Positions 3,189 to 33,733 of a DNA stretch of 33,733 nt are shown here, one piece after another; within the stretch, counting starts at the first letter, position 1, and every line of letters begins with the position of its first letter. A program made the position numbers and the translations under genes. The stretch is from Eubacteriales bacterium. GTDB taxonomy: Bacteria > Bacillota > Clostridia > Lachnospirales > Lachnospiraceae. The notes beneath the pieces were generated by a model, which did not search any database, had not been told where the DNA came from, and saw nothing but the letters and a program-made list of their open reading frames with translations. The stretch spans positions 1 to 33,733 of the forward strand of contig JAUNGB010000031.1 of assembly GCA_030524715.1 (NCBI GenBank), in the 5' to 3' direction.

Positions 3189-3282
3189 AAAACTCGTTGT
3201 CAGCAGGAGCATTTTAACTTTTGCGGAGTTGGTAACAAAGTTAAAAATAGAGTAAGATAAAAGGCAGTTAGCAGAATCTAAC
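3189..3282 (+). promoter_or_regulatory. Promoter with activator box and GTTAG palindrome (ABC pair)
   Basis: Seen in order: AAAACTCGTTG (3189-3199), six bases, GGAGCATTT (3206-3214); a possible -35 TTGGTA (3229-3234); an 18-base spacer; -10 TAAGAT (3253-3258); and the palindrome GTTAG-CAGAAT-CTAAC (3267-3282) at the expected start of transcription. The first motif, with the same six-base gap, and the palindrome recur at 6936-7031. The upstream motif is placed as an activator site and the palindrome as a repressor operator (inference). Confidence 0.65.
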
Positions 3283-3320
3283 CAAATAAAAGTATTTCGC
3301 TCGGAAAGTGAGGAATAGAA

Positions 3321-5198
3321 ATGGCTAAGAAAAAAAGTCAACCTGGCGAACCAAAGCAAGGTTTGTCGCGCCTGATGGAACTGGCAATGACGAAGAAAGC
3401 GCCGATGGTCAGCGGGATTATTTTATCCGTATTGGCTACCGTGGCATCGTTTGTTCCCTATCTGGCAATCTATTTTGTGATTCGGGAGATCGTAGGCGTC
3501 TATCCCGATTTTAACGACCTGAATGTAACGGCTGTATTAGGGTATGGCGCGCTTGCGTTAGGCGGTGTCCTTGTCAATGTTTTGCTTTATACTGCATCTG
3601 TGGCATTGTCACACCTTGCGGCGTATGGAACCCTGTACGAACTGAAAATTTCCTTTGTATCTCACATTACGAAGCTGCCGCTGGGGTATCATCTGAACAC
3701 GGGCAGCGGCAAACTGCGTAAGATCATGGACGACAACATTGAAAGTTTGGAGGGTTTTATCGCTCACGATCTACCCAACATGGTTTCGGCTTTTGTTTCC
3801 CCGGTTGTTATGCTGGTGCTTTTGTTCGCCGTTGACTGGCGTTTCGGTCTGGCAACCCTTTTAGGCATTATCGTGGCTTTTGTGCTGTATGGTGCTACCT
3901 CTGGCGGCAACACGACGCAACAACTAATGACGGACTATCAGGCATCCCTTGAAAATATGAGCAATGCTTCTGTGGAGTACATACGCGGAATTTCCGTGGT
4001 GAAAGCCTTTCGTCAGACAGCGTTTTCCTTTAAGCGCCTGTACGATTCGATCAAGAACTATACCGCAACGGTAATCCCTTATTCTCTTTCTCAGGAGCTT
4101 ATGACCGCTACCCTTACGGCGGCGCTCAATGCAATCTACCTGTTTTTGATTCCCATTGGAATCCTTGTAGGAAGCCATACACAGGATTATCAGTCCTTTG
4201 CAGCGACCTTTATCTTTTATCTGATTTTTGTCCCTGCGGTTGCAGCTATCTTGATGAAAGTAATCTATGCAATGGTGAATACCATGCAGATCAGCGGTTC
4301 GGTGGCGCGTCTGGATCAGATTATGACAGAACCGGAAATGAAAGAGGGAACCTATACAGAAAAGCCGGAAAATTATGATATTGTCTTTGAAAATGTGACT
4401 TTCTCATACACGAAAGATGGTCCGGCTGCACTGAAAGACATTTCGTTCACGGCAAGACAGGGTGAGGTTACAGCAATCGTTGGGCCATCCGGCGGCGGCA
4501 AGAGTACGATTGCAAATCTGATTCCCCGCTTTTACGATGTGGAGCAGGGAGCAATCAAGATCGGTGGAATTGATGTACGGGATATGGAAAGTGCTGCCCT
4601 GATGGAAACGGTGAGCTTTGTATTTCAAGATAACTTCCTGTTCAAGCAAAGCATTATGGATAATATACGGATGGGCCGCCCGGATGCTACCGAAGATGAA
4701 GTAATCGCTGCCGCGAAAGCGGCCCGGTGTGATGATTTTATTTCTGAACTTCCTAACGGCTATCAAACGATATTCGGCAAAGAGGGCGTAAAACTGTCTG
4801 GCGGCCAGATTCAGAGAATTGCCATTGCGCGGGCAATCGTGAAAAATGCGCCGGTGCTGGTACTTGACGAGGCCACTTCATTTTCTGACCCGGAGAATGA
4901 ACATCTGATTCAGCAGGCGTTGAATGAGCTGATGAAAGGCAAAACAGTTATTATGATCGCGCATAGGCTGTCTACTATACGAAACGCAAATCAGATTCTC
5001 GTCATTGACAGTGGAGAGCTTGTTCAGACTGGCACACACGAAGATTTAGTACAGCAACCAGGAAAATATCTTACTCTTTGGGAGAACTACACGCAGGCGC
5101 TCCGCTGGAAAATGGCCCGCCCTGTGGCAGAAGAAGCGAAACACCCTGCGGGTATACCTGGATGCCATTCGGCAGAGTCAATGAAAGGAGGCTGTTAA
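3321..5198 (+). CDS. ABC half-transporter (TMD-NBD fusion), YbtP/IrtA-like
   Basis: This 625-residue protein has an exporter-fold membrane domain with about six helices (residues 30-320), then an ATPase domain. The ATPase has Walker A GPSGGGKST (about 388-396), signature LSGGQIQR (about 491), Walker B VLVLDEATSFSDPENE and H-loop IMIAHRLST. The D-loop reads SFSD instead of the usual SLD, typical of one half of a heterodimer. Its partner starts two bases after its stop. YbtPQ and IrtAB are exporter-fold pairs that import ferric siderophores, and the neighbouring AraC, ECF and DtxR genes suit that role. Direction and substrate cannot be decided from sequence. The start has only a weak ribosome-binding site (GTGAGGAAT). 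Confidence 0.88.
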   Translation: MAKKKSQPGEPKQGLSRLMELAMTKKAPMVSGIILSVLATVASFVPYLAIYFVIREIVGVYPDFNDLNVTAVLGYGALALGGVLVNVLLYTASVALSHLAAYGTLYELKISFVSHITKLPLGYHLNTGSGKLRKIMDDNIESLEGFIAHDLPNMVSAFVSPVVMLVLLFAVDWRFGLATLLGIIVAFVLYGATSGGNTTQQLMTDYQASLENMSNASVEYIRGISVVKAFRQTAFSFKRLYDSIKNYTATVIPYSLSQELMTATLTAALNAIYLFLIPIGILVGSHTQDYQSFAATFIFYLIFVPAVAAILMKVIYAMVNTMQISGSVARLDQIMTEPEMKEGTYTEKPENYDIVFENVTFSYTKDGPAALKDISFTARQGEVTAIVGPSGGGKSTIANLIPRFYDVEQGAIKIGGIDVRDMESAALMETVSFVFQDNFLFKQSIMDNIRMGRPDATEDEVIAAAKAARCDDFISELPNGYQTIFGKEGVKLSGGQIQRIAIARAIVKNAPVLVLDEATSFSDPENEHLIQQALNELMKGKTVIMIAHRLSTIRNANQILVIDSGELVQTGTHEDLVQQPGKYLTLWENYTQALRWKMARPVAEEAKHPAGIPGCHSAESMKGGC

Positions 5199-5200
5199 TT

Positions 5201-6937
5201 ATGACGAGCTTAAAAGAAATGTTCCAGCTTTCAGACCGGGGTGCAAAAGATTTGAAAAAAGGGATTCTGGCCTGCACTTTGACAAACCTTTCTCTGATCT
5301 TGTCTGTGGCTGTTACGGTTCAGATTTTTATAGAGGTCTTAAAACCGCTCTCTGGCGGCGAAATTTCATGGAGCCGGATGTGGCTTTTACTTGCTGCCGG
5401 TGCCTTATCGGCGGTCATCAATTTCCTGTGCTGTAAAAATGATTACCGCAAGACTTATGTTTCCTGCTACACCGCAGCCGAGGATTCCCGTATCCGAATT
5501 GCGGAATTGGTACGCAAATTCCCTATGAGCGTTTTCAATGATAAGGATTTGACGGAGCTTACCACAAATATGATGGGCGACTGTGCCAGCATTGAACACT
5601 CCATGAGCCATATTGTGCCGCCCCTGATGGCAAACGGGATTTCCTGCACCCTGATCTGTATTTGTATTATGCTTTTTGACTGGCGCATGGGATTGTCCAT
5701 CTTCTGCACCCTGCCGCTTTCTTTCCTGATTATTCTGGGCAGCCGCAAAGTGCAGGAAAAAGCAAGCAGAAAACAGGTGGACGCAAAGTTAAAGGCGTCG
5801 GAGGAAGAGCAGGAATATTTGGACGGAATTAAGATCATCAAATCCTGCCATTTAGACGGGGAAAAGTATTCCAGTCTGAATCATGCGCTGAAAGCACTCA
5901 AGCAAGAATCTATCCGCATGGAATTGGGAACCAGCGTGTTTATTTCCGTAGCGCAGTTCGTCTTACAGGCCGGTATTGGTATTACTGTCTTTGTCGGGGT
6001 ACATCTCCTGACAGGCGGAAGTATAACCATCCTCCCGCTGCTGCTTTCTTTAGTCATTGTATGCCGGTTGTATGGGCCAATCCTGACAATCCTGACACTT
6101 CTGCCTATGCTGTTCCATACTCTTGTATCAACACAGCGTATGCGGGAATTAGCGTCTATCCCGATCATGGAGGGCAAAGCAGATGTGCCAATCGAAAATT
6201 ATGAAATTTCTTTTGAGGACGTGTCCTTTGCCTATAACAAGGAACCCGTTTTGGAGAATGTCACGGTAAAAATTCCAGAGGGAAAGATTACCGCACTGGT
6301 TGGGCCGTCTGGCAGCGGAAAAAGCACAATGTCGAGATTGATCGCACGATTTTGGGACGTAAACAGTGGAAAAATTACTGTGGGCGGCGTAGATGTGAAA
6401 ACACTTGACCCGGAATATCTGATGGGCTATATGTCCTTTGTGTTCCAGGATGTGATTCTGTTTAACGATACCATATTGAACAATATCCGTATCGGAAATA
6501 TGGATGCAACCGATGAACAGGTCATTGCCGCAGCGAAAGCGGCCTGCTGTGACGAATTTGTGCAGAAATTGCCGGATGGATATAACACCATGTTAGGTGA
6601 GAACGGCAGCACTCTGTCCGGTGGGGAACGTCAGCGGATTTCTATTGCCCGCGCTCTCTTAAAAGACGCACCTATTATTTTGCTGGACGAGGCAACAGCA
6701 AGCCTTGACCCGGAAAATGAAGTGCTGATTCAGGAGGCCATCTCCCGGCTGATTACTGGAAAGACGGTTCTTGTTATTGCTCACAGACTCCGCACGATTG
6801 TAGACGCCGATCAGATTATCGTTCTGGAAAACGGCCATGTTGCAGAGTGCGGTTCTCACAATGAACTGGTGGAGAGACCCGGAACGTATCGCAAACTCTA
6901 TGAGATTCAGACAAAGAGCCAGAAATGGGCGGTGTAA
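5201..6937 (+). CDS. ABC half-transporter (TMD-NBD fusion), YbtQ/IrtB-like
   Basis: I chose the ATG at 5201 because AAAGGAGG lies just before it; the open frame reaches further upstream but only into the preceding gene. The protein has 578 residues: about six membrane helices (25-320), then an ATPase with Walker A GPSGSGKST, signature LSGGERQR, Walker B IILLDEATASLDPENE and H-loop LVIAHRLRT. All catalytic motifs are canonical, in contrast with the altered D-loop of its partner. The two genes almost certainly form a heterodimer in the cytoplasmic membrane. The likely cargo is a siderophore, heme or other metal complex, inferred from the neighbours. Confidence 0.88.
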   Translation: MTSLKEMFQLSDRGAKDLKKGILACTLTNLSLILSVAVTVQIFIEVLKPLSGGEISWSRMWLLLAAGALSAVINFLCCKNDYRKTYVSCYTAAEDSRIRIAELVRKFPMSVFNDKDLTELTTNMMGDCASIEHSMSHIVPPLMANGISCTLICICIMLFDWRMGLSIFCTLPLSFLIILGSRKVQEKASRKQVDAKLKASEEEQEYLDGIKIIKSCHLDGEKYSSLNHALKALKQESIRMELGTSVFISVAQFVLQAGIGITVFVGVHLLTGGSITILPLLLSLVIVCRLYGPILTILTLLPMLFHTLVSTQRMRELASIPIMEGKADVPIENYEISFEDVSFAYNKEPVLENVTVKIPEGKITALVGPSGSGKSTMSRLIARFWDVNSGKITVGGVDVKTLDPEYLMGYMSFVFQDVILFNDTILNNIRIGNMDATDEQVIAAAKAACCDEFVQKLPDGYNTMLGENGSTLSGGERQRISIARALLKDAPIILLDEATASLDPENEVLIQEAISRLITGKTVLVIAHRLRTIVDADQIIVLENGHVAECGSHNELVERPGTYRKLYEIQTKSQKWAV

Positions 6938-7031
6938 AACTCGTTGCTATTTGGAGCATTTGTGTCGGCAAGAGTAGAAAAGACGGGAAATACCTGCTAT
7001 ACTAACATACATAAGGTTAGACATGGCTAAC
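6936..7031 (+). promoter_or_regulatory. Promoter with activator box and GTTAG palindrome (araC gene)
   Basis: It begins at the stop codon of the ABC gene: AAAACTCGTTG (6936-6946), six bases, GGAGCATTT (6953-6961); a weak -35 TAGAAA (6975-6980); a 17-base spacer; an extended -10 TGCTATACT (TATACT 6998-7003); and GTTAG-ACATGG-CTAAC (7016-7031), extended by one base to GGTTAG/CTAACC. The layout matches 3189-3282 within two bases. It indicates that the AraC gene has its own co-regulated promoter. Confidence 0.7.
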
Positions 7032-7055: not shown

Positions 7056-8039
7056 TTGAAGCCAGAAACAGTCATTTCAGCTTATGCCGAGGAAATAGAC
7101 GCTCGTACTAATACAAGGGTATTGACGAATGAGCCGGGCAGGATGGTTTACCAGATTGACGGCCAGGACGGGAGCGGTACGGTTGAAGTGCTGACATTGT
7201 TTCCCGGAGTAATCCTGCAATTTCACAGTTTTCATTGTAAGTCCTTTCGTCTTGCGGTGAATGGGAATGTCAATGAGGGGCTGAAAATCAATTTTTGTTC
7301 CGAGGGACGTATGGAAGTCCGTATGTCAGACAATCTTTGTTTGTTCATGGAACCGGGAAATTTAAGTCTGGACGTGCGGACGGCACAGGATAGTTTTCAG
7401 TTTCCATGCGGCCATTATCACGGGGTAGAGTTGTTCCTGCATCATTCTTCTATTGGAAAAGTGTTCCCGGAAGCATGGGAGGAACTAAAAATTAACCCGA
7501 CGAAAATACAAGACCGTTTCTGTGGCGAGGGCAAAAGCTATGTGATTTTTGCAGATGAACGGTTTAAGCAGATTTTTGATAATATGCTGAACGCACCTGA
7601 CGAGTGCAGAACGGAATATCTCAAAATCAAGGCAACAGAGCTTTTATTTCTTTTAGGTTCGGTAGAAATGCCGGACAAGAGCGACACCGCTTCTTTAATG
7701 ACAACGGGACAGGTGGAGATTGCAAAACAGGTCATGGAAATTGTAACAAGGGATTTAAGCCAGCATACTTCTGTGGAAACCCTTGCCGGAATGTTTGGAA
7801 TCAGCCCATCTTCCATAAAGAATTATTTTCGCGGGGTCTATGGAAAGAACATCTCTACCTATCTGCGGGAAACCCGTATGTCTGCCGCCGCCCTTGCATT
7901 AAGGGACGGGAAACAGCCCATTGGAGAAATCGCTACGGCTGTGGGGTATGAAAATGCCAGCAAATTTTCAGCGGCATTTAAGAGTTTCTTCGGGGAAACC
8001 CCGTTGGAATACCGGCGTCAAAGCCGGTGTGGAATTTAA
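7056..8039 (+). CDS. AraC-family transcriptional regulator
   Basis: This 327-residue regulator starts at TTG 7056 after an excellent GGGAGGTGAT. The N-terminal 210 residues form an unrecognised ligand-sensing part. The C-terminal 100 residues carry two helix-turn-helix motifs, SVETLAGMFGISPSSIKNYFR and PIGEIATAVGYENASKFSAAFKSFFGETPLEYRR (split here by family convention); the second is the classical AraC signature. YbtA, a regulator of this family, activates siderophore-uptake genes when bound to the siderophore. By analogy this protein may activate its own promoter and that of the ABC pair through the shared box upstream of -35 (inference). Confidence 0.9.
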   Translation: MKPETVISAYAEEIDARTNTRVLTNEPGRMVYQIDGQDGSGTVEVLTLFPGVILQFHSFHCKSFRLAVNGNVNEGLKINFCSEGRMEVRMSDNLCLFMEPGNLSLDVRTAQDSFQFPCGHYHGVELFLHHSSIGKVFPEAWEELKINPTKIQDRFCGEGKSYVIFADERFKQIFDNMLNAPDECRTEYLKIKATELLFLLGSVEMPDKSDTASLMTTGQVEIAKQVMEIVTRDLSQHTSVETLAGMFGISPSSIKNYFRGVYGKNISTYLRETRMSAAALALRDGKQPIGEIATAVGYENASKFSAAFKSFFGETPLEYRRQSRCGI

Positions 8040-8142
8040 GGTATCAAAACTGCAAAGCAGTTTTAAGGCTTTCACTGCGTGTGAAAGCCGCAGGCTCGCA
8101 AGAGCCGATACCTTAACGAAGAAAAATGTGCCACATTTTTCT
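8040..8142 (+). ncRNA. Possible structured RNA element (cloverleaf plus hairpin)
   Basis: Directly after the AraC stop, GGTATC (8040-8045) pairs with GATACC (8107-8112). They enclose three perfect hairpins: AAAACTGC/GCAGTTTT (8046-8064), GGCTTTCAC/GTGAAAGCC (8067-8089) and GGCTC/GAGCC (8093-8106). A fourth hairpin follows, AGAAAAATGTG/CACATTTTTCT (8120-8142), 34 bases before the ECF S-component start. No open frame explains it. It may be an mRNA control element, an RNA-processing site or a mobile palindromic repeat. The pairing is seen directly; function is unknown. Confidence 0.55.
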
Positions 8143-8176: not shown

Positions 8177-8773
8177 ATGAGTAACAAAACCAATACAAAG
8201 AAATCAAAACGGCTGGTATCAGCCGGGGTATTCATTGCCCTGTACTTTGTCGTATTTGTCGTGATCGGAATGTGCTGTATGCCGGTTCCGGTTCTGTATC
8301 TGTGTATGTCCAGTCTGATTGCGCTGTTTGCCGCCCCGGTCTACATGATGTTGCTGGCGAAAGCGCCCGTACATGGCCCAATCTTTATTGCAGCGATTCT
8401 TCCCTGCCTGTTCCTGTTGCTGCAAGGTAACATCTGGATTGTGATTCTGACTGGCATTGTGGCTGGCATCCTGGCGGAAGTCATTGCGGGGATGGGAAAA
8501 TTCCGCAATCCGAAGTTGAATGTTTTAAGCTATGTGTTCTTCTCTGAAAACCTGTTGGGCGGATTCCTGCCGATTTGGGTTATGCGTGACTATTATTTCG
8601 CTGACACATTGGAGCGTGGCATGAGTGCCGATTTCTGCAATACTTTGGAGGCGCTGACGCCGGTTTGGGTACTGCTTGTGATGATCGCCGGTACGGTTAT
8701 CTTTTCTCTGATTGGCTGTGTGGTCAGCAAAAAGCTATTCAGAAAGCATTTTGAAAAGGCCGGAATGGTATGA
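8177..8773 (+). CDS. ECF transporter S component, MptD/Trep_Strep-like
   Basis: This 198-residue integral membrane protein starts at ATG 8177 after GGAGG. It has about five or six hydrophobic helices, a Lys/Arg-rich N-terminus and no soluble domain, as expected of a substrate-binding S component. I recognise it as the MptD/Trep_Strep type. Relatives of this type in lactobacilli and staphylococci (for example LhaS) have been linked to heme uptake, which fits the metalloregulator in this operon; the substrate here is inferred. Its stop overlaps the next start (ATGA), so the T component is translationally coupled. Confidence 0.8.
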   Translation: MSNKTNTKKSKRLVSAGVFIALYFVVFVVIGMCCMPVPVLYLCMSSLIALFAAPVYMMLLAKAPVHGPIFIAAILPCLFLLLQGNIWIVILTGIVAGILAEVIAGMGKFRNPKLNVLSYVFFSENLLGGFLPIWVMRDYYFADTLERGMSADFCNTLEALTPVWVLLVMIAGTVIFSLIGCVVSKKLFRKHFEKAGMV

Positions 8774-9453
8774 GTACCAACAAGGGGCTGACTTTTGACC
8801 CTCGCACAAAAATATTACTGCTGCTTTTGGTAAATCTCCTTTTGCTGCTTAGTCATTCCCTGTGGTTTGAAATTGTCCTTTTTACAAGCTGTATTGTGAT
8901 TGTCGGCATCAGCGGGCAAGTAAAAAGTGCAGGTCATTTTCTGATTGCTTTCCTGCTTATGCTGGGGATTGACCGTGGACTGACACCGTATATGAGAGGT
9001 TTCGTTTTTACTTTGGTGTCGTTTGTTAGTCTTGCGCTGCGGAAATTCCTGCCCTGCTTTATTTTAGGGAAATGGATTCTCACAACTACGGAGGTCAGCG
9101 AATTTGTGGCGGCTATGTGGAAGATTCATCTTCCGCAGACAGCGATTATTCCACTGTCCGTTGTGTTCCGATATTTCCCAACAATCAAAGAGGAATGGGG
9201 TGCAATCCGGGCCGCCATGAAAATGCGGGGCATCCATGTTTCGTTAGAGCATATCATGGTTCCGCTTTTAATGTCTGCAATCAACGTCAGCGAAGAATTG
9301 TCGGCTGCGGCCTTGTGCCGCGGCCTGGACAATCCGGGAGAACATACCTGTATGTGTAAAGTGGAGTTTCAGCAGCAGGATAAAATTGTCCTGCTGCTGT
9401 GCTTTATTCTTGCGGCTTTCGCAATCTTTTTGAAAGGGGTTGGAATCTTATGA
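8770..9453 (+). CDS. ecfT: ECF transporter T component (EcfT-like)
   Basis: This 227-residue membrane protein has about five helices. Two coupling motifs of the AxxxRG type are visible, AMKMRG in the middle and AALCRG near residue 190; in EcfT proteins these dock into the two ATPase subunits. ATGA overlaps link it to the S gene before it and the ATPase gene after it, so the three are made together in fixed proportion. Because the operon has its own S, T and ATPases, this is a dedicated (group I) ECF system, not one sharing a common energising module. Confidence 0.85.
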   Translation: MSTNKGLTFDPRTKILLLLLVNLLLLLSHSLWFEIVLFTSCIVIVGISGQVKSAGHFLIAFLLMLGIDRGLTPYMRGFVFTLVSFVSLALRKFLPCFILGKWILTTTEVSEFVAAMWKIHLPQTAIIPLSVVFRYFPTIKEEWGAIRAAMKMRGIHVSLEHIMVPLLMSAINVSEELSAAALCRGLDNPGEHTCMCKVEFQQQDKIVLLLCFILAAFAIFLKGVGIL

Positions 9454-10934
9454 TTGATATTCAAAGCGTTTCCTACTCTTATCAGGAGGATGGAACCGAT
9501 CAAAGCTTGAAAAATATTGATCTGAAAATACAGGACGGCGAATGTGTTTTGCTATGCGGAAAAAGCGGCTGCGGGAAAACAACGATTACCCGGCTGCTGA
9601 ATGGCATGATACCCAATTTTTACGAGGGTGCTGTGACAGGCAAGGTTATGTTGGATGGAGATAATCTTCTGGATTTACCCATGTTTGAGATTTCAAAGAA
9701 AGTGGGTACAGTGTTCCAGAACCCCCGTACACAATTTTATACCGTAAATACCACCAGCGAGATTGCGTTTGGGTGTGAGAATTTGGGGATGCCGCCAGAG
9801 GAAATAGCAGATCGTGTCAGACAGACAGCAAAGGATTTACAGATTGAATTCCTGCTGAACCGAAATATCTTTGCGTTATCCGGCGGCGAAAAACAGATTG
9901 TCGCATTTGCCAGTATCTATGCAATGTCTCCGCAGATTTATGTGTTGGATGAGCCGTCTTCAAACCTGGATGTGCAGGCTATTGAGAAAATCAGAAAAAT
10001 CCTTACGCTATTGAAGCAACAGGGTAAAACGATTGTGATTGCGGAGCATCGAACCTATTATCTGAAAGATTTGGTTGACCGTGCCGTGTATCTGGACAAC
10101 GGAAAAATTGTCCGGGAATACTCCATGAGTGAGCTTGCTCATTTTACAGTCGCAGAGCAGTTAGAACGTGGGATTCGGACAGTAGATTTACTGAACTATC
10201 CGGTGAAGCCATATACTGCACCTGCCACCTGTGGGAGTATTCGGATAGATCATCTGCGATTCTCTTATGGAAAGGACGAAACGCTGCATATTGACCACAT
10301 GGAAATTCCATCTGGACATATCACTGCTATTATTGGAACCAACGGGGCCGGCAAGTCCACCTTTGTTTCCTGCCTATGTGGATTGCTGAAAAAAACAAAA
10401 GGAAATTTCGTTCTTTCAGAAAAGCCATTCCGCACAAAAGATCGTTTGCGGCAAAGCTATCTTGTCATGCAGGAGGTGAATCATCAGCTTTTTTCTGACA
10501 GTGTGCAGGAGGAAATTGTCTTAGGGGTAAAAGAGCAATCAGACAGCCAGCTAAAAACAATTACGGACGCCCTGGATATTACCGCACTCTATGACCGCCA
10601 TCCCATGACTTTATCTGGCGGGCAGAAACAGCGCGTGATTATTGCGTCAGCTATGTTTTGTGGTAAACGGATTCTGTTCTTTGACGAGCCTACAAGCGGC
10701 CTGGATTTTTCACATATGATGCACACCTGCGAACTATTGAAAGGTTTGCAGAAGAAAGATACATTCCTGTTTATCATTACACATGATTTTGAATTTATTG
10801 CTTCAGTATGCGACAGCGTGATTCATATTGAACAGGGAAAAGTGATAGAGCAGTATGACCTTAATCAAGAGGGCGTTGAGAAATCAGAAAACTTTTTCAA
10901 GCAGAGCATGAGGGAAAAACATGAAGATACATGA
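9450..10934 (+). CDS. ECF transporter ATPase, two fused ABC domains
   Basis: I chose ATG 9450, which overlaps the T-gene stop as ATGA; the open frame upstream is just read-through. The product (494 residues) carries two complete ABC ATPase domains: Walker A GKSGCGKTT, signature LSGGEKQ and Walker B IYVLDEPSSNLD in the first; Walker A GTNGAGKST, signature LSGGQKQR and Walker B ILFFDEPTSGLD in the second. It therefore replaces the separate EcfA and EcfA' subunits. It powers uptake by the S and T proteins encoded just upstream. Its last 14 bases overlap the DtxR-family gene. Confidence 0.88.
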   Translation: MIDIQSVSYSYQEDGTDQSLKNIDLKIQDGECVLLCGKSGCGKTTITRLLNGMIPNFYEGAVTGKVMLDGDNLLDLPMFEISKKVGTVFQNPRTQFYTVNTTSEIAFGCENLGMPPEEIADRVRQTAKDLQIEFLLNRNIFALSGGEKQIVAFASIYAMSPQIYVLDEPSSNLDVQAIEKIRKILTLLKQQGKTIVIAEHRTYYLKDLVDRAVYLDNGKIVREYSMSELAHFTVAEQLERGIRTVDLLNYPVKPYTAPATCGSIRIDHLRFSYGKDETLHIDHMEIPSGHITAIIGTNGAGKSTFVSCLCGLLKKTKGNFVLSEKPFRTKDRLRQSYLVMQEVNHQLFSDSVQEEIVLGVKEQSDSQLKTITDALDITALYDRHPMTLSGGQKQRVIIASAMFCGKRILFFDEPTSGLDFSHMMHTCELLKGLQKKDTFLFIITHDFEFIASVCDSVIHIEQGKVIEQYDLNQEGVEKSENFFKQSMREKHEDT

Positions 10935-11283
10935 ATCGGGTGAGGATTATCTGGAGACTATCCTCATGCTTCAAAGGCAAAAAGGTATGGTGCGTTCCGT
11001 TGATCTTGCCCGATACATGGGGTTTTCCAAACCGAGTATCAGCCACGCAGTAAAGGTTTTGCAGGAAGGCGGTTTTCTGATAAAGGATGAGGATGGTTAT
11101 CTCCACTTGACCGACATAGGTAAAGAAGTGGCGAAGAAAATCTATGAAAAGCACCAGTTTTTTACGAATGGTTTGATAGAGCTTGGCGTTGATCCTGCCA
11201 TAGCTGAAGCGGATGCCTACAAAATTGAACATGTGATAAGCGAGGAAAGTTATACGAAACTGAAAGAAGCAAAGCGGAGGTAA
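10921..11283 (+). CDS. DtxR/MntR-family metal-dependent repressor
   Basis: This 120-residue protein has the N-terminal winged helix of DtxR (ESGEDYLETILMLQ, then SVDLARYMGFSKPSISHAVKVL as recognition region) and a dimerisation part with the metal-binding pattern DAYKIEHVISEESYTKL. There is no C-terminal SH3-like domain, as in short MntR-type members. The start overlaps the ATPase gene by 14 bases, so it belongs to the operon. It is the best candidate for binding the GTTAG-N6-CTAAC palindromes when metal is sufficient. That palindrome contains the GTTAG/CTAAC halves of the classical DtxR box, but the spacing differs, so the assignment is inference. Confidence 0.85.
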   Translation: MKIHESGEDYLETILMLQRQKGMVRSVDLARYMGFSKPSISHAVKVLQEGGFLIKDEDGYLHLTDIGKEVAKKIYEKHQFFTNGLIELGVDPAIAEADAYKIEHVISEESYTKLKEAKRR

Positions 11284-11289
11284 AAGCCT

Positions 11290-11730
11290 ATGATAAATAT
11301 TCTTGTCACCCCGTCCAGGGAGGAGGATGGAATTCTGCAAGAGATCGTGGACTTCTTATCCTCAAGGACACAGTGCCAGGTTACACATTTAACATCCTCT
11401 CCCCAGGTATTAAAATTCCCTGGTTTGGAAATCCATCTGAATGAGCAGACGGTCTATCGGGATGGCGTGTTAGTTCCTATGACATACCATGAGTTCTTTA
11501 CCCTTGCCTACTTAGCATCCCATCCCGGATGGGTATTCAGTAAGGCACAAATCTATGAGGCAGTGTGGAAAGAGGCTGGTGGGAATTGCGAGGGTGCGGT
11601 AACGAACATCATCAGTCATCTACGTCACAAATTGAATCCAGACAATCCGAAGGAAGGTTATATCCGCACTGTGGTCAACAGCGGATATAGGTTTGAAGCT
11701 GATGGAACAATGGAGACTGGGCAAAAATAA
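11290..11730 (+). CDS. Receiver-less winged-helix protein, copy 2
   Basis: This 146-residue protein has a C-terminal OmpR/PhoB winged helix (about 48-135): FPGLEIHLNEQTVYRDG, YHEFFTLAYLASHPGWVFSK and the wing RTVVNSGYRFEA. The N-terminal 45 residues are not a receiver domain and lack phosphorylation-site residues, so it is not a normal response regulator. GGAGG overlaps the DtxR stop seven bases before the ATG, making it the last gene of the transport operon. Related copies occur at 2004 (broken) and 14758 (intact). It probably binds DNA without a partner kinase; targets are unknown. Confidence 0.75.
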   Translation: MINILVTPSREEDGILQEIVDFLSSRTQCQVTHLTSSPQVLKFPGLEIHLNEQTVYRDGVLVPMTYHEFFTLAYLASHPGWVFSKAQIYEAVWKEAGGNCEGAVTNIISHLRHKLNPDNPKEGYIRTVVNSGYRFEADGTMETGQK

Positions 11731-26343: not shown

Positions 26344-26418
26344 CTGCTCGGAGTGATCCGGGCTTTTTTAATGCCTGTTTTGGGCGTACCGCATTTTGAG
26401 GGAAGGGAGGTGCCGGGA

Positions 26419-29055
26419 ATGGCAGGGAGCCGGATTAAAGGAATTACAGTAGAAATCGGCGGCGATACGACAAAGCTGCAGACCGTCTTAAAGGGTGTGA
26501 ATACGGAAATCCGCAATACCCAGTCGCAGCTCCGGGATGTGGAGAAGCTCTTAAAGCTCGATCCGGGCAATACGGAGCTGCTGGCGCAGAAGCACCGGCT
26601 CCTTGGGGATGCGGTAAAGGAAACGAAAGAGAAGCTGGAAACCTTAAAGCTGGCGGCGGAGCAAGCGAATACCGCCCTGGCAAACGGGGAGATTTCGCAG
26701 GAGCAGTACGATGCGCTGCAGAGGGAGATTATTGAGACGGAAAACGCCTTAAAAAATCTGGAGCAGCAGGCAGGCCGGTCGGCTGTGGCGGTGCAGAAGA
26801 TTGCGGCTACCGGGGAGAAGCTGAAAACGGTCGGGGATAACATTTCTTCTGTGGGGCAGAAATTCCTCCCGGTTACGGGGGCGGTAGGCGCGCTGGGGGC
26901 TGCGGCTGTCAAAACGGCGGCGGATTTTGATTCTGCCATGAGCCAGGTGGCGGCGGTATCCGGGGCGACCGGCGATGATTTAGACCGCCTGCGGGAGAAA
27001 GCCCGTGAGATGGGGGCGAAGACAAAGTTTTCTGCCTCGGAGGCTGCCGAGGCCATGAATTACATGGCGATGGCGGGCTGGAAAACGGAAGATATGCTGT
27101 CCGGCATTGAGGGTATTATGAACCTTGCGGCTGCTTCGGGGGAGGATCTAGCGACTACCTCGGATATTGTGACGGACGCGCTTACCGCTTTCGGGCTGTC
27201 GGCAAAGGATTCCGGGCATTTTGCGGATATACTGGCGGACTGCCGGGCGGCATTTTCGGGGCTTTCTGAGTCGGAAAAGGCTGCGGCGGCGGAGACGCTG
27301 GTAGGGAAAAACGCCATGAGCGGATTCCTGGCGCTGATGAACGCGGCCCCGGCGGATATTGAAAAGCTGAGCGGGGCGATTGCAGGCTGTGGCGGTACGG
27401 CGGAAAAAATGGCGGAGACCATGCAGGGCGCTGGACATCCGGGGGATGTCCGTTTAGCGCCGACCGAAGCGGAGCGTAGAAACCTTGCGGGGCAGCTTAC
27501 CATTTTGAAAAGCCAGTTGGAAGAGCTGGCGATTTCTTTCGGCGAGCTTCTGATGCCTGCGATCCGTATGATTGTGGGATGGATTCAGACATTTGTGGAC
27601 TGGCTCAATGGCATGGGGGAAGGGACAAAAAAGGTCATTGTTACCATTGCGCTCCTGGCAGCGGCTATCGGCCCGGTGCTGATCGTGATAGGGAAGGTGG
27701 TGTCGGCAGTCGGGAGCATTATGGCTTTTGTGCCGAAGCTGGTTTCCGGTATCCAGATGGTAAAGACGGCTTTTTCCGCGCTGGGTGCGGTTATGGCGGC
27801 GAATCCGCTGGTTCTGATCGTTGCGGCGGTCGCAGCGGCTGTGGCGGCGCTGGTACTGCTTTACCAGAAATGTGAGTGGTTCCGCGACGCGGTCAATGGG
27901 GTATGGGCGGCGGTTCAGGAGTTTTTTGTTTCCGCCTGGACGGTTATCTGCTCCTTTTTTACAGATAAGATACCGGATGCGTGGAACTCCCTGGCAGGAT
28001 TTTTCGGGCAGGTTCCGGCATGGTGGTCGGGCCTGTGGAACTCCGTGAGTGATTTTTTCGGGAATATCTGGACGGGCATGATGAACAATCCGGTGCTTTC
28101 CGGCATTGTTACACTGATCCGGTCTTTGTGGGAAAATCTGGTGGTCACGCTCCAGGGGATCTGGACTGGGCTGCAGAATATCGCGGCGGGCGCATGGGAG
28201 CTGATTAAAAATGTGATCCTTGCGCCGGTACTTCTGCTGATCGACCTGCTTACCGGGAACTTTACGCAGCTACGGGAGGATGTCGTCCATATTTTTACGA
28301 ACATCCAGTCGGCAGCTTCGATGATCTGGTCGGGAATCCGGCAGGTGGTTTCCACGCTGGCGCAGGGGCTGGTAAACCATGTGGTTCTGCTGCTGTCGGG
28401 GCTTAGAAGTACGGCGGCAAATATCTGGGCTGCGATCAAAAATACGGCTTCTTCTGCCTGGAATGTGCTGAAAAATACGGTGGTTTCCATTGCCGGAAAT
28501 CTGAAAAATGCGGCGGTTCTGGCTTTCCAGAATATGGTTTCGGGTATCCGTTCGGCGCTTTCCTCCCTTGGCGGGGTGGTGCAGCAGGGCTTCCAGTCTG
28601 CAATCAGCTTCATTACGTCCCTTCCGGGGCGGGCGCTTGGCTGGGGGCGCGACTTCGTAAACGGGATCGCAAACGGCATCCGTGGGGCTGTTGGGAATGT
28701 GGTGTCCGCTGTGTCGGATGTGGCAAATGCGATCCGGTCTGTCCTGCATTTCTCTGTGCCGGATGAGGGGCCGCTTACGGATTATGAAAGCTGGATGCCG
28801 GACTTCATGGGCGGGCTTGCCCGTGGGATTGAAAAAAGCCGGGGGATGGTACAGAAGGCGATGGATGGCGTGGCTGCGGATATGGTGCTCAGCCCGAAAG
28901 CGGGTATGATGGATTATGATACCTATGGAGGCGGATTCCGGCGGGGAGACGGAGGCAGGTACGAAGCAGCGGGACGTGGTACGGCTTGGCGTAGTGAGCA
29001 TTTCCGTGTCCTTTTCCGTATCCGCCCGGTGGCTTGCGTTGCTTACGGGCTTTAA
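26419..29055 (+). CDS. Phage tail tape measure protein (TP901 family), internally altered
   Basis: I chose ATG 26419, directly after GGGAAGGGAGGTG; the frame upstream covers the terminator. The protein has 878 residues: an N-terminal coiled coil (TEIRNTQSQLRDVEKLLKLDPGN), the TP901 core (ADFDSAMSQVAAVSGATGDDLDRLREKAREMG), then hydrophobic and Trp-rich repeats. Three changes stand out. After HFADILAD about 80-95 residues of the core are missing. After AETMQ an 18-codon palindromic insert (27427-27480) interrupts the usual step to NLAGQLTILKSQLEEL. After about 28950 the frame enters a different register of the next gene. A working tail is unlikely. GC is far higher than in neighbouring genes. 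Confidence 0.82.
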   Translation: MAGSRIKGITVEIGGDTTKLQTVLKGVNTEIRNTQSQLRDVEKLLKLDPGNTELLAQKHRLLGDAVKETKEKLETLKLAAEQANTALANGEISQEQYDALQREIIETENALKNLEQQAGRSAVAVQKIAATGEKLKTVGDNISSVGQKFLPVTGAVGALGAAAVKTAADFDSAMSQVAAVSGATGDDLDRLREKAREMGAKTKFSASEAAEAMNYMAMAGWKTEDMLSGIEGIMNLAAASGEDLATTSDIVTDALTAFGLSAKDSGHFADILADCRAAFSGLSESEKAAAAETLVGKNAMSGFLALMNAAPADIEKLSGAIAGCGGTAEKMAETMQGAGHPGDVRLAPTEAERRNLAGQLTILKSQLEELAISFGELLMPAIRMIVGWIQTFVDWLNGMGEGTKKVIVTIALLAAAIGPVLIVIGKVVSAVGSIMAFVPKLVSGIQMVKTAFSALGAVMAANPLVLIVAAVAAAVAALVLLYQKCEWFRDAVNGVWAAVQEFFVSAWTVICSFFTDKIPDAWNSLAGFFGQVPAWWSGLWNSVSDFFGNIWTGMMNNPVLSGIVTLIRSLWENLVVTLQGIWTGLQNIAAGAWELIKNVILAPVLLLIDLLTGNFTQLREDVVHIFTNIQSAASMIWSGIRQVVSTLAQGLVNHVVLLLSGLRSTAANIWAAIKNTASSAWNVLKNTVVSIAGNLKNAAVLAFQNMVSGIRSALSSLGGVVQQGFQSAISFITSLPGRALGWGRDFVNGIANGIRGAVGNVVSAVSDVANAIRSVLHFSVPDEGPLTDYESWMPDFMGGLARGIEKSRGMVQKAMDGVAADMVLSPKAGMMDYDTYGGGFRRGDGGRYEAAGRGTAWRSEHFRVLFRIRPVACVAYGL
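27427..27480. repeat. Palindromic in-frame insert in the tape measure gene
   Basis: GGCGCTGGACATCC (27427-27440), loop GGG, GGATGTCC (27444-27451), bulge GTTT, AGCGCC (27456-27461): a 14-bp stem with one bulge, then a 19-base tail to 27480. It adds exactly 18 codons without a stop, at a position where family members have none. It is similar in kind to palindromic elements that insert in coding DNA; origin unknown. Confidence 0.55.
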
Positions 29056-29216: not shown

Positions 29217-29269
29217 TTGTAATCTGCGTAAGTATGGTGTATGATATAGGAAGTTAGCAATAGCTAACT
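29217..29269 (+). promoter_or_regulatory. Promoter with GTTAG palindrome (methyltransferase operon)
   Basis: TTGTAA (29217-29222), 17 bases, TATGAT (29240-29245), then AGTTAGC-AATA-GCTAACT (29252-29269), a perfect dyad with the same GTTAG-N6-CTAAC spacing as at 3267 and 7016, again at the expected transcription start. The upstream AAAACTCGTTG box is not present. This ties the operon to the transport block regulator. Confidence 0.72.
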
Positions 29270-29316
29270 GAAAGCATTTCAAACATTATCTATCATAGAA
29301 GGAATAGTAAAATATC

Positions 29317-29961
29317 ATGCCATTGAGTGAAAGAGAATATAAGGAATTAACAATCAAGGAATTTACCAAAGCAGCAAAGGTCTATGACAGCGGACACGCA
29401 GGCATCTATGAGATGTGTAAGGATGATTACCCTCCGGTTCTCGCGGAGTTGGAAAGGGAACCGTTTACGGATATTCTCGATTGTGGCTGTGGCACCGGGC
29501 CTATGATCGAGCTTATTTCTTCCAGATACCCGGATAAGCATTATACCGGTCTGGATATTACCCCGGAGATGATTAACAGGGCAAAGGCAAAAAAGCTGTC
29601 CAATGCCGAATTTATCGTCGGTGATTGCGAAAGGCTTCCGTTTGAACCGGAATCTTTTGATGTCATAATCTGCACGAACAGCTTTCATCATTATCCGAAT
29701 CCGCAGGATTTCTTTGACAGCGTATATCGCGTCCTCAGAAAAAGCGGACGGCTGATTCTCAGGGATTATACCTCCTCAGATTTTATGGTATGGCTCATAA
29801 ATCATGTGGAAATGCCTTTATCACATCTCTGCGGTCATGGGGATGTTCGTATTTATAAAAAAAGCGAATATTTGGAAATGATAACCAGGGCGGGGCTGAC
29901 GCCGGTCACTCTTGAGGCACAGAAAAAATTCCGTTTTCATATGGTTGCAAAAAAAGAATGA
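29317..29961 (+). CDS. Class I SAM-dependent methyltransferase, first of three
   Basis: This 214-residue protein has SAM-binding motif I, ILDCGCGTGPMIEL (about 53-66), motif II YTGLDITPEMINRAK, FVVGDCERLPFEPESFDVII-like (here IVGDCERLPFEPESFDVIIC) and motif III VLRKSGRLILRDY. The N-terminal EYKELTIKEFTKAAKVYD resembles UbiE/BioC-like enzymes that methylate small molecules. The ribosome-binding site is modest (AGAAGGA). It is the first gene under the palindrome-controlled promoter, and the next methyltransferase starts within 90 bases. Each of the three differs in sequence, so this is not a simple recent duplication. Confidence 0.88.
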   Translation: MPLSEREYKELTIKEFTKAAKVYDSGHAGIYEMCKDDYPPVLAELEREPFTDILDCGCGTGPMIELISSRYPDKHYTGLDITPEMINRAKAKKLSNAEFIVGDCERLPFEPESFDVIICTNSFHHYPNPQDFFDSVYRVLRKSGRLILRDYTSSDFMVWLINHVEMPLSHLCGHGDVRIYKKSEYLEMITRAGLTPVTLEAQKKFRFHMVAKKE

Positions 29962-30046
29962 AATAAGGCAGAAGTTTCAGACTGACCAGGATAAGCAGTC
30001 GGACAAGTCGGGATGGGGGAGCAAAAAGAGGCGGCGAGAAAATAGA

Positions 30047-30700
30047 GTGGAGGAGAAAATTCAGAACGCATATCATGATTCAAAAAACATTTATGATGAT
30101 GTTTTAACCCAGAGCAATTTTTTTAGTAAAGCGTATATCAAGCTGTTTTGGAGCGGGACGGATGATAATAAGATTGCCGGAAAGGTTCTTTCCTACATTC
30201 CGGATGATTTTTCGGGGACGCTTTTGGACGTCCCTGCTGGTACTGCGGTATTCACGTATAAAAAATGGGCACAGCTTTCGGATGCTCAGATTATCTGCCT
30301 GGATTATAGCGAAGACATGATTGGGCAGGCAAGAAAGCGGCTGAAAGACTATGCCCATGTTTCCTGTGTGCAGGGAGATGTAGGAAACCTTCCCCTGGAG
30401 AATAATTCCTGTAATATTGTATTGAGCATGAACGGTTTCCATGCGTTCCCGGATAAAGAGAAGGCTTTTCAGGAAACATGGCGTGTCCTGAAGCCGGGAG
30501 GAAAATTTATCGCCTGCTTTTATATCAAAGGGGAGTCTGGCATTACGGACTGGCTGGTTAAAAATGTCCTGTCAAAAAAGGGCTGGTTTACGCCGCCATT
30601 CCAGACCGGAAGTGAATTGAAGGCGGTGCTGGAACAGATGTACAAAAAGATTGATTTCCATATAGACGGGTCTATGGTTTATTTCGAGTGTATAAAATAG
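30047..30700 (+). CDS. Class I SAM-dependent methyltransferase, second of three
   Basis: Starting at GTG 30047 gives 217 residues; the open frame extends upstream to 29912 but only through the end of the previous gene and a Lys-rich stretch. Motif I is unusual: LLDVPAGTAVFTYK has Pro-Ala in place of GxG. The other motifs are normal: CLDYSEDMIGQARKRL, QGDVGNLPLENNSCNIVLSMNGFHAF and WRVLKPGGKFIACFY. The C-terminus (KGWFTPPFQTGSELKAVLEQ) resembles the methyltransferases near iron-uptake genes of Clostridia as I remember them. The start codon is the least certain part. Confidence 0.82.
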   Translation: MEEKIQNAYHDSKNIYDDVLTQSNFFSKAYIKLFWSGTDDNKIAGKVLSYIPDDFSGTLLDVPAGTAVFTYKKWAQLSDAQIICLDYSEDMIGQARKRLKDYAHVSCVQGDVGNLPLENNSCNIVLSMNGFHAFPDKEKAFQETWRVLKPGGKFIACFYIKGESGITDWLVKNVLSKKGWFTPPFQTGSELKAVLEQMYKKIDFHIDGSMVYFECIK

Positions 30701-30757
30701 GAAATCAATAGCTTCTGGCTGTGCTGAAATAATCAGAATTTAAGAAAGGTATCGCAA

Positions 30758-31384
30758 ATGAATAAAAAAATATGGGACTTATATGCACCAATATATGAGC
30801 GGGCAATGCGTTTGGATCGTAAAATTTATCAGATGATGTATGAGCGGATTCCGAAAGTCATTCAGGAAAAGGATGTGCTGGAGATCGCCACCGGCCCCGG
30901 TTTGCTGGCTAAGCATGTGGCATATGCTGCAAATAAAATGATCGCCACGGATTACTCCGAAGGAATGATTGCGCAGGCCACAAAGGGAGAATATCCTGCC
31001 AATCTGACGTTTGAAGTAGCAGACGCTGTAGACCTGCCGTTTGATGATCAATCCTTCGATGTGGTTCTGATTGCCAATGCGCTTCATGTGATGCCGAATC
31101 CGGAAAAGGCGCTTATGGAGATAGATCGGGTATTGAAGGAGAAAGGACTGCTGATTGCACCTAATTTTGTAAATCATAAAGGCGGTTTTATAAGCCGCAT
31201 ATGGTCCCGCATCCTGAAAATTGCAGGAATAAGCTTTGAACACCAGTGGGAAGAAGAGGAATACAGACAATTTCTTGAAAAAAACGGCTGGAAAATTAAA
31301 AACTGGAAAGTAATGCAGGCGCGCATCCCGATGGCCTATGCTGAATGCGTAAGAGAACGGAATACTCTGGTTTGCAAAAAATGA
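30758..31384 (+). CDS. Class I SAM-dependent methyltransferase, third of three
   Basis: This 208-residue protein starts after AGAAAGG. Motifs: DVLEIATGPGLLAKHV (motif I, about 39-54), MIATDYSEGMIAQATK, VADAVDLPFDDQSFDVVLIANALHVM and VLKEKGLLIAPNFV. The N-terminal NKKIWDLYAPIYERAMRLDRKIYQMMYERI is a lid helix pair typical of UbiE-like and phosphoethanolamine-type methyltransferases. It follows the second gene by 57 bases with no terminator, so the three appear co-transcribed. Substrate unknown; the shared operator suggests action during metal limitation. Confidence 0.86.
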   Translation: MNKKIWDLYAPIYERAMRLDRKIYQMMYERIPKVIQEKDVLEIATGPGLLAKHVAYAANKMIATDYSEGMIAQATKGEYPANLTFEVADAVDLPFDDQSFDVVLIANALHVMPNPEKALMEIDRVLKEKGLLIAPNFVNHKGGFISRIWSRILKIAGISFEHQWEEEEYRQFLEKNGWKIKNWKVMQARIPMAYAECVRERNTLVCKK

Positions 31385-32671: not shown

Positions 32672-33733
32672 ATGTATCCGGTCAGTGAGGCGTTTCTGCA
32701 GGCGGTTAAGGAGAATACCCGGCGGTATTACTGGACGGGGAAGATCACTACTACGGCAGGCGCTGTGTACGAATTTACCCAGGCAGATATTGTAAAGGGG
32801 AGCGGCTATCTTTCCGGCCAGTGCTGCGGAAGCTCGGAAATTGAGCTGGGGACGGTCTATGCGGCGGAGCTTGGGATTTCCCTGTTTTCTGAGATTGACC
32901 GGTATACGCTGGAGGATGCGCAGATTGAATTGCTGTACTCCCTGCGCCTGGCGGACGGTTCCTATGAAAGTGTCCCTATGGGGATTTTTGAGGTAAGCGA
33001 GGCGAACCGGACAGCCCATGTGCTGGAATTGAAGGCTTATGATTATATGCTCCGGTTTGAGCGGAGCTTTAATGGTTTTGAGACGGTGGGGACGGCTTAC
33101 GATTTTATGGAGCTGTGCGCAGATGCCTGTGGTGTGGAGCTGGCGCAGACGCGGGGCGAGATCAGCGCAATGGCAAACGGGGCGGAGCTGCTTTCCATCT
33201 ATGCAGAGAATGATATTGAAACGTACCGGGATGTGCTTTATTTTGTGGCGCAGGTGCTGGGCGGGTTCTTTGTGGTCAATAGGGACGGGCGGCTGTAGCT
33301 GCGCAAATATGGGGCGGAGCCGGTCATGGAGATCGGGCAGAAGCACCGGTATTCCAGCAGCTTTTCGGATTTTATTACCCGGTATACGGCGGTGAGCTCT
33401 ACGAACCTGCGGACGCAGACGGCGGAGTATTATGCCCTGGAGGAAGATGACGGGCTTACTATGAACCTGGGGGTAAATCCCCTGCTGCAGTTTGGCCTGG
33501 ATGAAACGAGGGAGCAGCTCTGCCGGAATATCTTAAATGACCTGGCGGCAGTGAATTATGTGCCGTTTGATTCGGATACCATAGGGAACCCGGCGCTTGA
33601 CCTTGGGGATGTACTGAAATTCTCCGGCGGGCAGGCGGATGAAACTAAGAATACCTGTATTACTTGGTGGAGGTGGAGCTGCCGGTGGTATGGTCTGAGG
33701 ACGGGATGGCGGAGGCTTATGTGACGTTTGAGC
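32672..33733 (+). pseudogene. Phage tail-tip (prophage endopeptidase/receptor-binding type) protein, amber stop and frameshift, cut by window end
   Basis: From ATG 32672, after GGGGGTGG, the frame reads MYPVSEAFLQAVKENTRRYYWTGKI and later SYESVPMGIFEVSEANRTAHVLELKAYDYMLRF, as in tail proteins that follow the distal-tail gene in phi13/TP901-like phages. A TAG at 33296-33298 interrupts it, yet the same frame continues in homology, QLRKYG being expected where TAG-LRKYG is seen. Around 33645 the frame changes again to YLYYLVEVELPVVWSEDGMAEAYVTFE, which runs off the window. Two independent defects show decay, although a suppressed amber could explain the first. Confidence 0.72.

Follow-up and report, generated by a model that had tools for sequence, protein, structure and literature searches.

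The stretch of DNA analyzed here (the window, 33,733 nucleotides; contig JAUNGB010000031.1 of the Eubacteriales bacterium assembly GCA_030524715.1, family Lachnospiraceae) carries a probable siderophore-uptake cassette with two promoters, each bearing a box upstream of the -35 and a palindrome downstream of the -10. The upstream operon encodes two ATP-binding cassette (ABC) half-transporters, and the downstream operon an AraC-family regulator, an MptD-family energy-coupling factor (ECF) substrate subunit, a T subunit, a double ATPase and a DtxR-like protein. We consider it likely that both promoters are activated by the AraC protein and repressed by a DtxR-type regulator in response to iron. 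The cassette comprises the following genes:

3321..5198, forward strand: ABC half-transporter, YbtP/IrtA-like (best single-subunit PDB match 6p6i_A)
5201..6937, forward strand: ABC half-transporter, YbtQ-like (6p6i_B and 8vsi_B)
7056..8039, forward strand: AraC-family regulator with a TTG start (HTH_18 at residues 243-322)
8177..8773, forward strand: MptD-family ECF substrate subunit (start uncertain; the frame opens at 8126)
8770..9453, forward strand: ECF T subunit of the CbiQ family (Pfam)
9450..10934, forward strand: double ECF ATPase (ATG at 9450; the frame opens with GTG at 9399)
10921..11283, forward strand: short DtxR/MntR-like protein (PF01325 and PF02742; Tyr100 codon at 11218-11220)

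Among the best 60 PDB sequences for each ABC protein, the first has 6p6i_A (352 bits) as its top single-subunit hit, with IrtA next; the second has 6p6i_B and 8vsi_B, the latter being YbtQ by name (304 bits). Because 6p6i_A also represents a chain of 8vsi, we take it to be YbtP. Two-domain eukaryotic exporters outscore the single-subunit structures for both proteins, by summing two stretches; among single-subunit structures, these sequence matches place the pair nearest YbtP/YbtQ or IrtA. The AraC protein has a C-terminal double helix-turn-helix domain (PF12833, 77 bits), and the exporter-fold transporter pair and AraC regulator of the original prediction, which was made from the sequence alone, are thus borne out. 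As to a ligand-binding (cupin) domain at the N-terminus of AraC, Pfam matched no domain there and strands are predicted at low confidence; a plasmid search with the AraC protein returned 2 records (28% and 33% identity). In related metagenome-assembled genomes, araC of L038 (1292-2068) and the ECF ATPase of L037 (6776-8771) match in separate pieces.

The elements of the two promoters, together with a third copy of the palindrome, are:

3189..3214, forward strand: predicted AraC box (upstream half-site with flank), ABC promoter (exact match; kept in 3/3 orthologous ABC promoters)
3225..3234, forward strand: predicted second AraC half-site GGAG (3225-3228) at the ABC gene (overlaps the weak -35 TTGGTA; direct-repeat test)
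3229-3234, forward strand: -35 TTGGTA, ABC promoter (read by eye)
3253..3258, forward strand: -10 TAAGAT, ABC promoter (read by eye; 18-base spacer)
3267..3282, no strand: predicted iron operator of EqbA/DtxR type, ABC promoter (GTTAG-N6-CTAAC)
6936..6961, forward strand: predicted AraC box, araC promoter (exact match; variants kept in 6/6 orthologs)
6970..6980, forward strand: predicted second AraC half-site AGAG (6971-6974) at araC (abuts the -35 TAGAAA)
6975-6980, forward strand: -35 TAGAAA, araC promoter (consensus scan)
6998..7003, forward strand: -10 TATACT, araC promoter (consensus scan; 17-base spacer; the pair scores 9/12)
7016..7031, no strand: predicted iron operator of EqbA/DtxR type, araC promoter (GTTAG-N6-CTAAC)
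29253..29268, no strand: third predicted iron operator, before the methyltransferase gene 29317-29961, without an exact AraC box

The box, AAAACTCGTTG-N6-GGAGCATTT, matches exactly at both positions, and the equally exact palindrome lies 52 and 54 bases further on, which confirms the layout originally proposed; the third exact palindrome had been missed. A scan of the window that tolerated 3 mismatches at most returned these 2 box matches only (0.01 expected), and they are also the only exact matches in the whole 5.28-Mb genome. The palindrome had been placed at +1. It does lie near the start site at both promoters, but begins a few bases downstream of the +1 that we set at about 7 bases after the -10. 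A consensus scan found no forward-strand promoter reaching threshold at the ABC gene; a sub-threshold promoter fits the need for an activator, without being proof of one.

We compared 47 sequences (842,566 bases), comprising the window, 6 orthologous loci and 40 distant loci. The orthologous loci (L033-L038), from one scan of genome contigs, encode AraC proteins 64-66% identical to that of the window, and 3 of them (L033, L036, and L037) extend to the start of the first ABC gene; the araC promoter alignment holds 7 sequences and the ABC promoter alignment 4. A GGAG[C/T]ATTT box lies upstream of araC at a similar distance in all 6 orthologs, where the palindrome ends 20-28 bases before the gene, and the 3 loci long enough to include the start of the ABC gene have both elements there as well. 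The prediction, which had named the occurrence of the motifs upstream of orthologous genes beforehand as its check, thus withstood it. Invariant columns amount to 13/26 in the box against 17/69 outside the named elements at araC, and to 20/26 against 30/85 at the ABC gene; the palindrome has 10/16 in both alignments and the second half-site of the ABC promoter 7/10. As for the limits first drawn around the box, its TTG, GGAG and ATTT are the core that mainly persists in relatives, but AAAACTC is gone from several araC promoters, and the second half-site had been overlooked.

The two copies lie 3.7 kb apart within one cassette, and the shared motifs might be leftovers of a promoter duplication or products of chance. 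We give this almost no credence, because the remaining promoter DNA differs, both elements are kept at both places in relatives and the chance expectation is 0.01; the original claim that the motifs do not reflect a recent duplication stands on the first two grounds. Duplication was rejected on that basis unless the orthologs carry the same relic, and chance was rejected for the box by the window and genome counts and for the palindrome by other genomes. With 1 mismatch allowed, the window holds 3 palindromes against 0.61 expected, a number reached in 4 of 100 shuffles. Because this count alone is not beyond chance, the weight of the palindrome derives from other genomes.

The half-sites are spaced 19 bases apart at the ABC promoter and 18 bases apart (GAG to GAG) at the araC promoter. 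In the direct-repeat test a direct repeat was preferred, and an inverted-repeat reading of the box was dropped. The box is probably the upstream half of a direct repeat that forms a predicted operator for the AraC protein of the cassette; on sequence grounds, both promoters have two direct half-sites with the inner one at the -35. The position of the second half-site, overlapping or adjoining the -35, makes recruitment of RNA polymerase by AraC probable. AraC-family proteins can also repress, and in Yersinia the expression of ybtA drops when supernatant of producers is added, according to the available part of PMC8725597, so that AraC might read the box as a repressor, or act in both ways. This seems improbable to us, since a half-site that borders a weak -35 on its upstream side in both promoters and a direct repeat of 18-21 bases fit activation.

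The box lies within 5 kb for 9 of the 11 other AraC proteins whose DNA-binding domain is 53-79% identical to that of the window, and its pattern occurs for just 3 of the remaining 38 (domain identity at most 48.5%, or no domain match; Fisher P = 5e-6, with rows that are not independent; both L070 AraC genes share two boxes). The two misses (L034 and L035) do carry a variant of the box at araC, and neither locus extends to the ABC promoter. By this comparison of non-independent rows, the putative operator covaries with the AraC DNA-binding domain.

The palindrome follows a different distribution. TTAG-N6-CTAA has 87 copies in the 47 sequences, and 47 of these copies lie within 350 bases 5' of a cassette gene, a zone that makes up 11.5% of the compared sequence; ten control patterns gave 1-8 matches each in this zone, out of 2-49 in total. 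Two of the 47 cassette-upstream copies (L036 1784 and L037 329), about 300 bases off, probably serve divergent genes. With the window excluded, the palindrome occurs in 28 of 34 loci with a match to the first ABC protein or to the ECF substrate or T subunit, and in 2 of 12 loci that have an AraC relative but none of these matches. The box thus tracks the AraC domain and the palindrome is not so limited, which would be explained if two different proteins read the two elements.

In the genome of the window, GTTAG-N6-CTAAC has 20 copies against 2 for a reversed control. Across six genomes of the same genus, one of which has none, palindromes total 36 and controls 6. The totals for four genomes further removed are 12 and 7, which means that the signal weakens beyond the genus. 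Beside the 20 sites are iron-linked genes (feoA-feoA-feoB, a second MptD, a Shr-like haem protein, and a dtxR gene) and others (two ABC membrane proteins, enolase, a methyltransferase, DUF2325, and DUF3793). Several sites precede genes without a known iron link, such as DUF3793, NusG_II and a TetR-like neighbor whose match is under the cut-off, and two neighboring genes gave no Pfam match. On a further contig of this genome (C80, L116 1105-1994), a Fur-family gene and a dtxR gene are divergent, with the palindrome in their common intergenic region. The palindrome before the enolase gene (L114, C48; Pfam) recurs before enolase in two related metagenome-assembled genomes (L035 12239 and L037 10460, by reading).

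We read the palindrome as a candidate iron box. Its core is identical in pattern to the operator core of EqbA, a DtxR-type repressor of the equibactin locus of Streptococcus equi. In gel shifts reported in PMC3672683, Fe2+, Zn2+, and Mn2+ promote the binding of EqbA to the eqbB promoter, and a 36-bp palindrome with the center GTTAGATGTATCTAAC is required. This extended palindrome is not present at the window sites, which have the 16-base core in common with it and differ in the flanks.

In the arrangement that we favor, iron shortage would free the operator just past each start site, and metal-loaded DtxR would block transcription from both promoters when iron is plentiful. AraC, most likely with the imported ferric siderophore bound, would activate both promoters, its own included. 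The cassette would then behave as an AND gate that opens when iron is low and the ligand is present, and because araC carries its own box, positive feedback would follow. The direct basis consists of the sequences, their conservation, the way in which the box varies together with the AraC domain, and the iron genes that accompany the palindrome across the genome; from these we infer binding by AraC and DtxR, the direction of control, the ligand, and the identity of the acting repressor among three open dtxR genes.

Several observations weigh against this arrangement. The palindrome is missing from 6 of the 34 cassette loci (L090, L092, L094, L096, L098, and L099), and same-locus promoter pairs share a box in only 5 of 15 cases. 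Distant promoters do support the direct repeat, with 8 TGGA pairs at a spacing of 18-22 bases in a non-redundant set of 26, where 300 shuffles averaged 0.76 and reached at most 5. The word TGGA, however, was picked only after the promoters had been inspected, and an unguided motif search returned a hairpin-like G/C stretch and a T-run, not an AraC half-site. A strict composite pattern gave 3 matches in 2 of 397 genomes of the family (the own genome and G355; two are those of the window) and 0 matches for controls; L068, L069, and L073, whose boxes have GGGCC, fall outside this pattern. The structure model of AraC has a predicted local distance difference test score of 55.7, too poor for a fold search, and so a ligand pocket is not supported. 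Finally, the DtxR-like protein of the cassette carries Tyr100 at a metal-ligand position that is Cys in all 12 relatives whose sequence covers it.

This last point concerns which DtxR protein would act. Both the DtxR N-terminal DNA-binding domain (PF01325) and the metal-binding and dimerization domain (PF02742) of the 10921 protein score over the cut-off, and the original prediction had put this protein in the place of Fur. The operator speaks for that proposal, having the EqbA core and marking iron genes; the protein itself speaks against it, as do two other open dtxR genes of the Cys type in the same genome, on C141 (77% identical) and C80 (47%), the latter itself behind a palindrome. Aligned MntR has Glu in this column, so Tyr100 is neither of the primary-site ligands, Cys (DtxR/EqbA) or Glu (MntR). 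In DtxR itself, most changes at Cys102 abolish activity. Given Tyr100 and the other Cys-type genes, a different DtxR may be the working repressor. Iron control of the cassette appears likely and is perhaps exerted in trans. That the C80 or C141 protein exerts it, with the 10921 protein metal-blind or decaying and binding constitutively or never, is to our mind only slightly less probable than its opposite; the 10921 gene is open over its full length and keeps the other recognizable ligand positions, and a Tyr-type DtxR protein may simply respond differently. A further copy in this genome, 87% identical (C63, L132 3-296), is cut by the contig start and broken by an internal stop codon. A small winged-helix (Trans_reg_C) protein recurs beside the DtxR-like gene or the cassette (window 11290-11730; L033 5735-6139 and 14165-14566), with copies at L132 306-725 and L131 3049-3576 identified by reading translations.

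Among described systems, equibactin (eqbA-N on ICESe2 of S. equi) shares with the window the operator core, an importer (eqbHIJ), and YbtPQ-like eqbKL, as far as PMC3672683 was accessible. There, however, EqbA controls a nonribosomal peptide synthetase (NRPS) operon and has Cys104 in place of the Tyr, and the gene list in the accessible part names no AraC regulator; beside the window cassette, no siderophore synthesis gene was seen. Yersiniabactin resembles the window in having an AraC activator gene beside YbtPQ-type genes and promoters with metalloregulator boxes and AraC repeats, namely Fur boxes and putative YbtA repeats (PMC8725597 and PMC11225919, in the parts available). In contrast, the window has a DtxR-type repressor rather than Fur, an importer made of ECF (MptD) and the ABC pair without an outer-membrane receptor, and no NRPS. 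The window system would work like YbtA/Fur control, as its Gram-positive counterpart, without being a member of it, because the repressor belongs to another family. Island 023_CTn of Clostridium difficile RT023, a mobile element, has the order ABC, ABC, AraC, ABC ATPase, ECF; the likeness is by product names, and the part of PMC6814731 available describes no promoter elements. Among openly licensed papers, we found neither this promoter arrangement nor the substrates or signals of MptD/ECF/YbtPQ-like cassettes described.

The cassette probably serves siderophore uptake. The MptD family record names no substrate, ABC proteins with this fold are often exporters, and eqbKL apparently acts in efflux in S. 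equi (PMC3672683, available part), which would suit another substrate (a cofactor, haem, or a toxic compound) with iron control as one input. We regard this as unlikely, since eqbHIJ is required for equibactin-dependent iron import (same source), the nearest single-subunit structures are YbtP/YbtQ and IrtA, and the putative iron box stands at both promoters. The search of the own genome for siderophore synthesis was confined to IucA/IucC, which gave no match, and the condensation domain, which gave a single one, in a frame of 483 residues; this makes a foreign siderophore plausible. A further proposal, which we offer tentatively and with more doubt than belief, is that this is a two-key cassette of gut Lachnospiraceae for foreign siderophores, whose own repressor in this strain lost a metal ligand and whose control passed, via the shared operator spelling, to the chromosomal iron regulator of the host. 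AraC would then sense the imported foreign ferric siderophore, and the importer would be on only when DtxR reports iron shortage.

The third predicted operator, at 29253, precedes three methyltransferase-like genes (29317, about 29990, and 30758). This segment (29253-31384) sits between phage tail genes, with a tape measure gene (26353-29055) on one side and a tail protein gene (32672) on the other, as if iron control by the host extended to the cargo genes of a prophage. A phage search with the 29317 methyltransferase returned 18 records, all below 60% identity. At 32672-33724, two adjacent frames match positions 1-208 and 219-332 of phrog_23052, as if the gene were split. Separately, a terminator-like hairpin with a T-run lies at most 75 bases before the palindrome in 12 of 26 distant promoters against 8 of 130 shuffles (for example L079 4200, L081 12774, L097 6316, L104 10106, and L105 14342), often after a -10-like site, and in 0 of 11 promoters of the window and orthologs. 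Some of these hairpins may be terminators of the upstream gene; others could be leader attenuators next to the operator.

Altogether, our results indicate that this anaerobe has a genome-wide iron regulon whose operator has a spelling known from a single streptococcal element, and iron genes could therefore be called from sequence in gut genomes. The iron box and the activator box together give a concrete, testable code for the MptD/ECF/YbtPQ-like cassettes of gut Firmicutes, and the cassettes provide a natural collection of AraC proteins whose sites have changed along with them.

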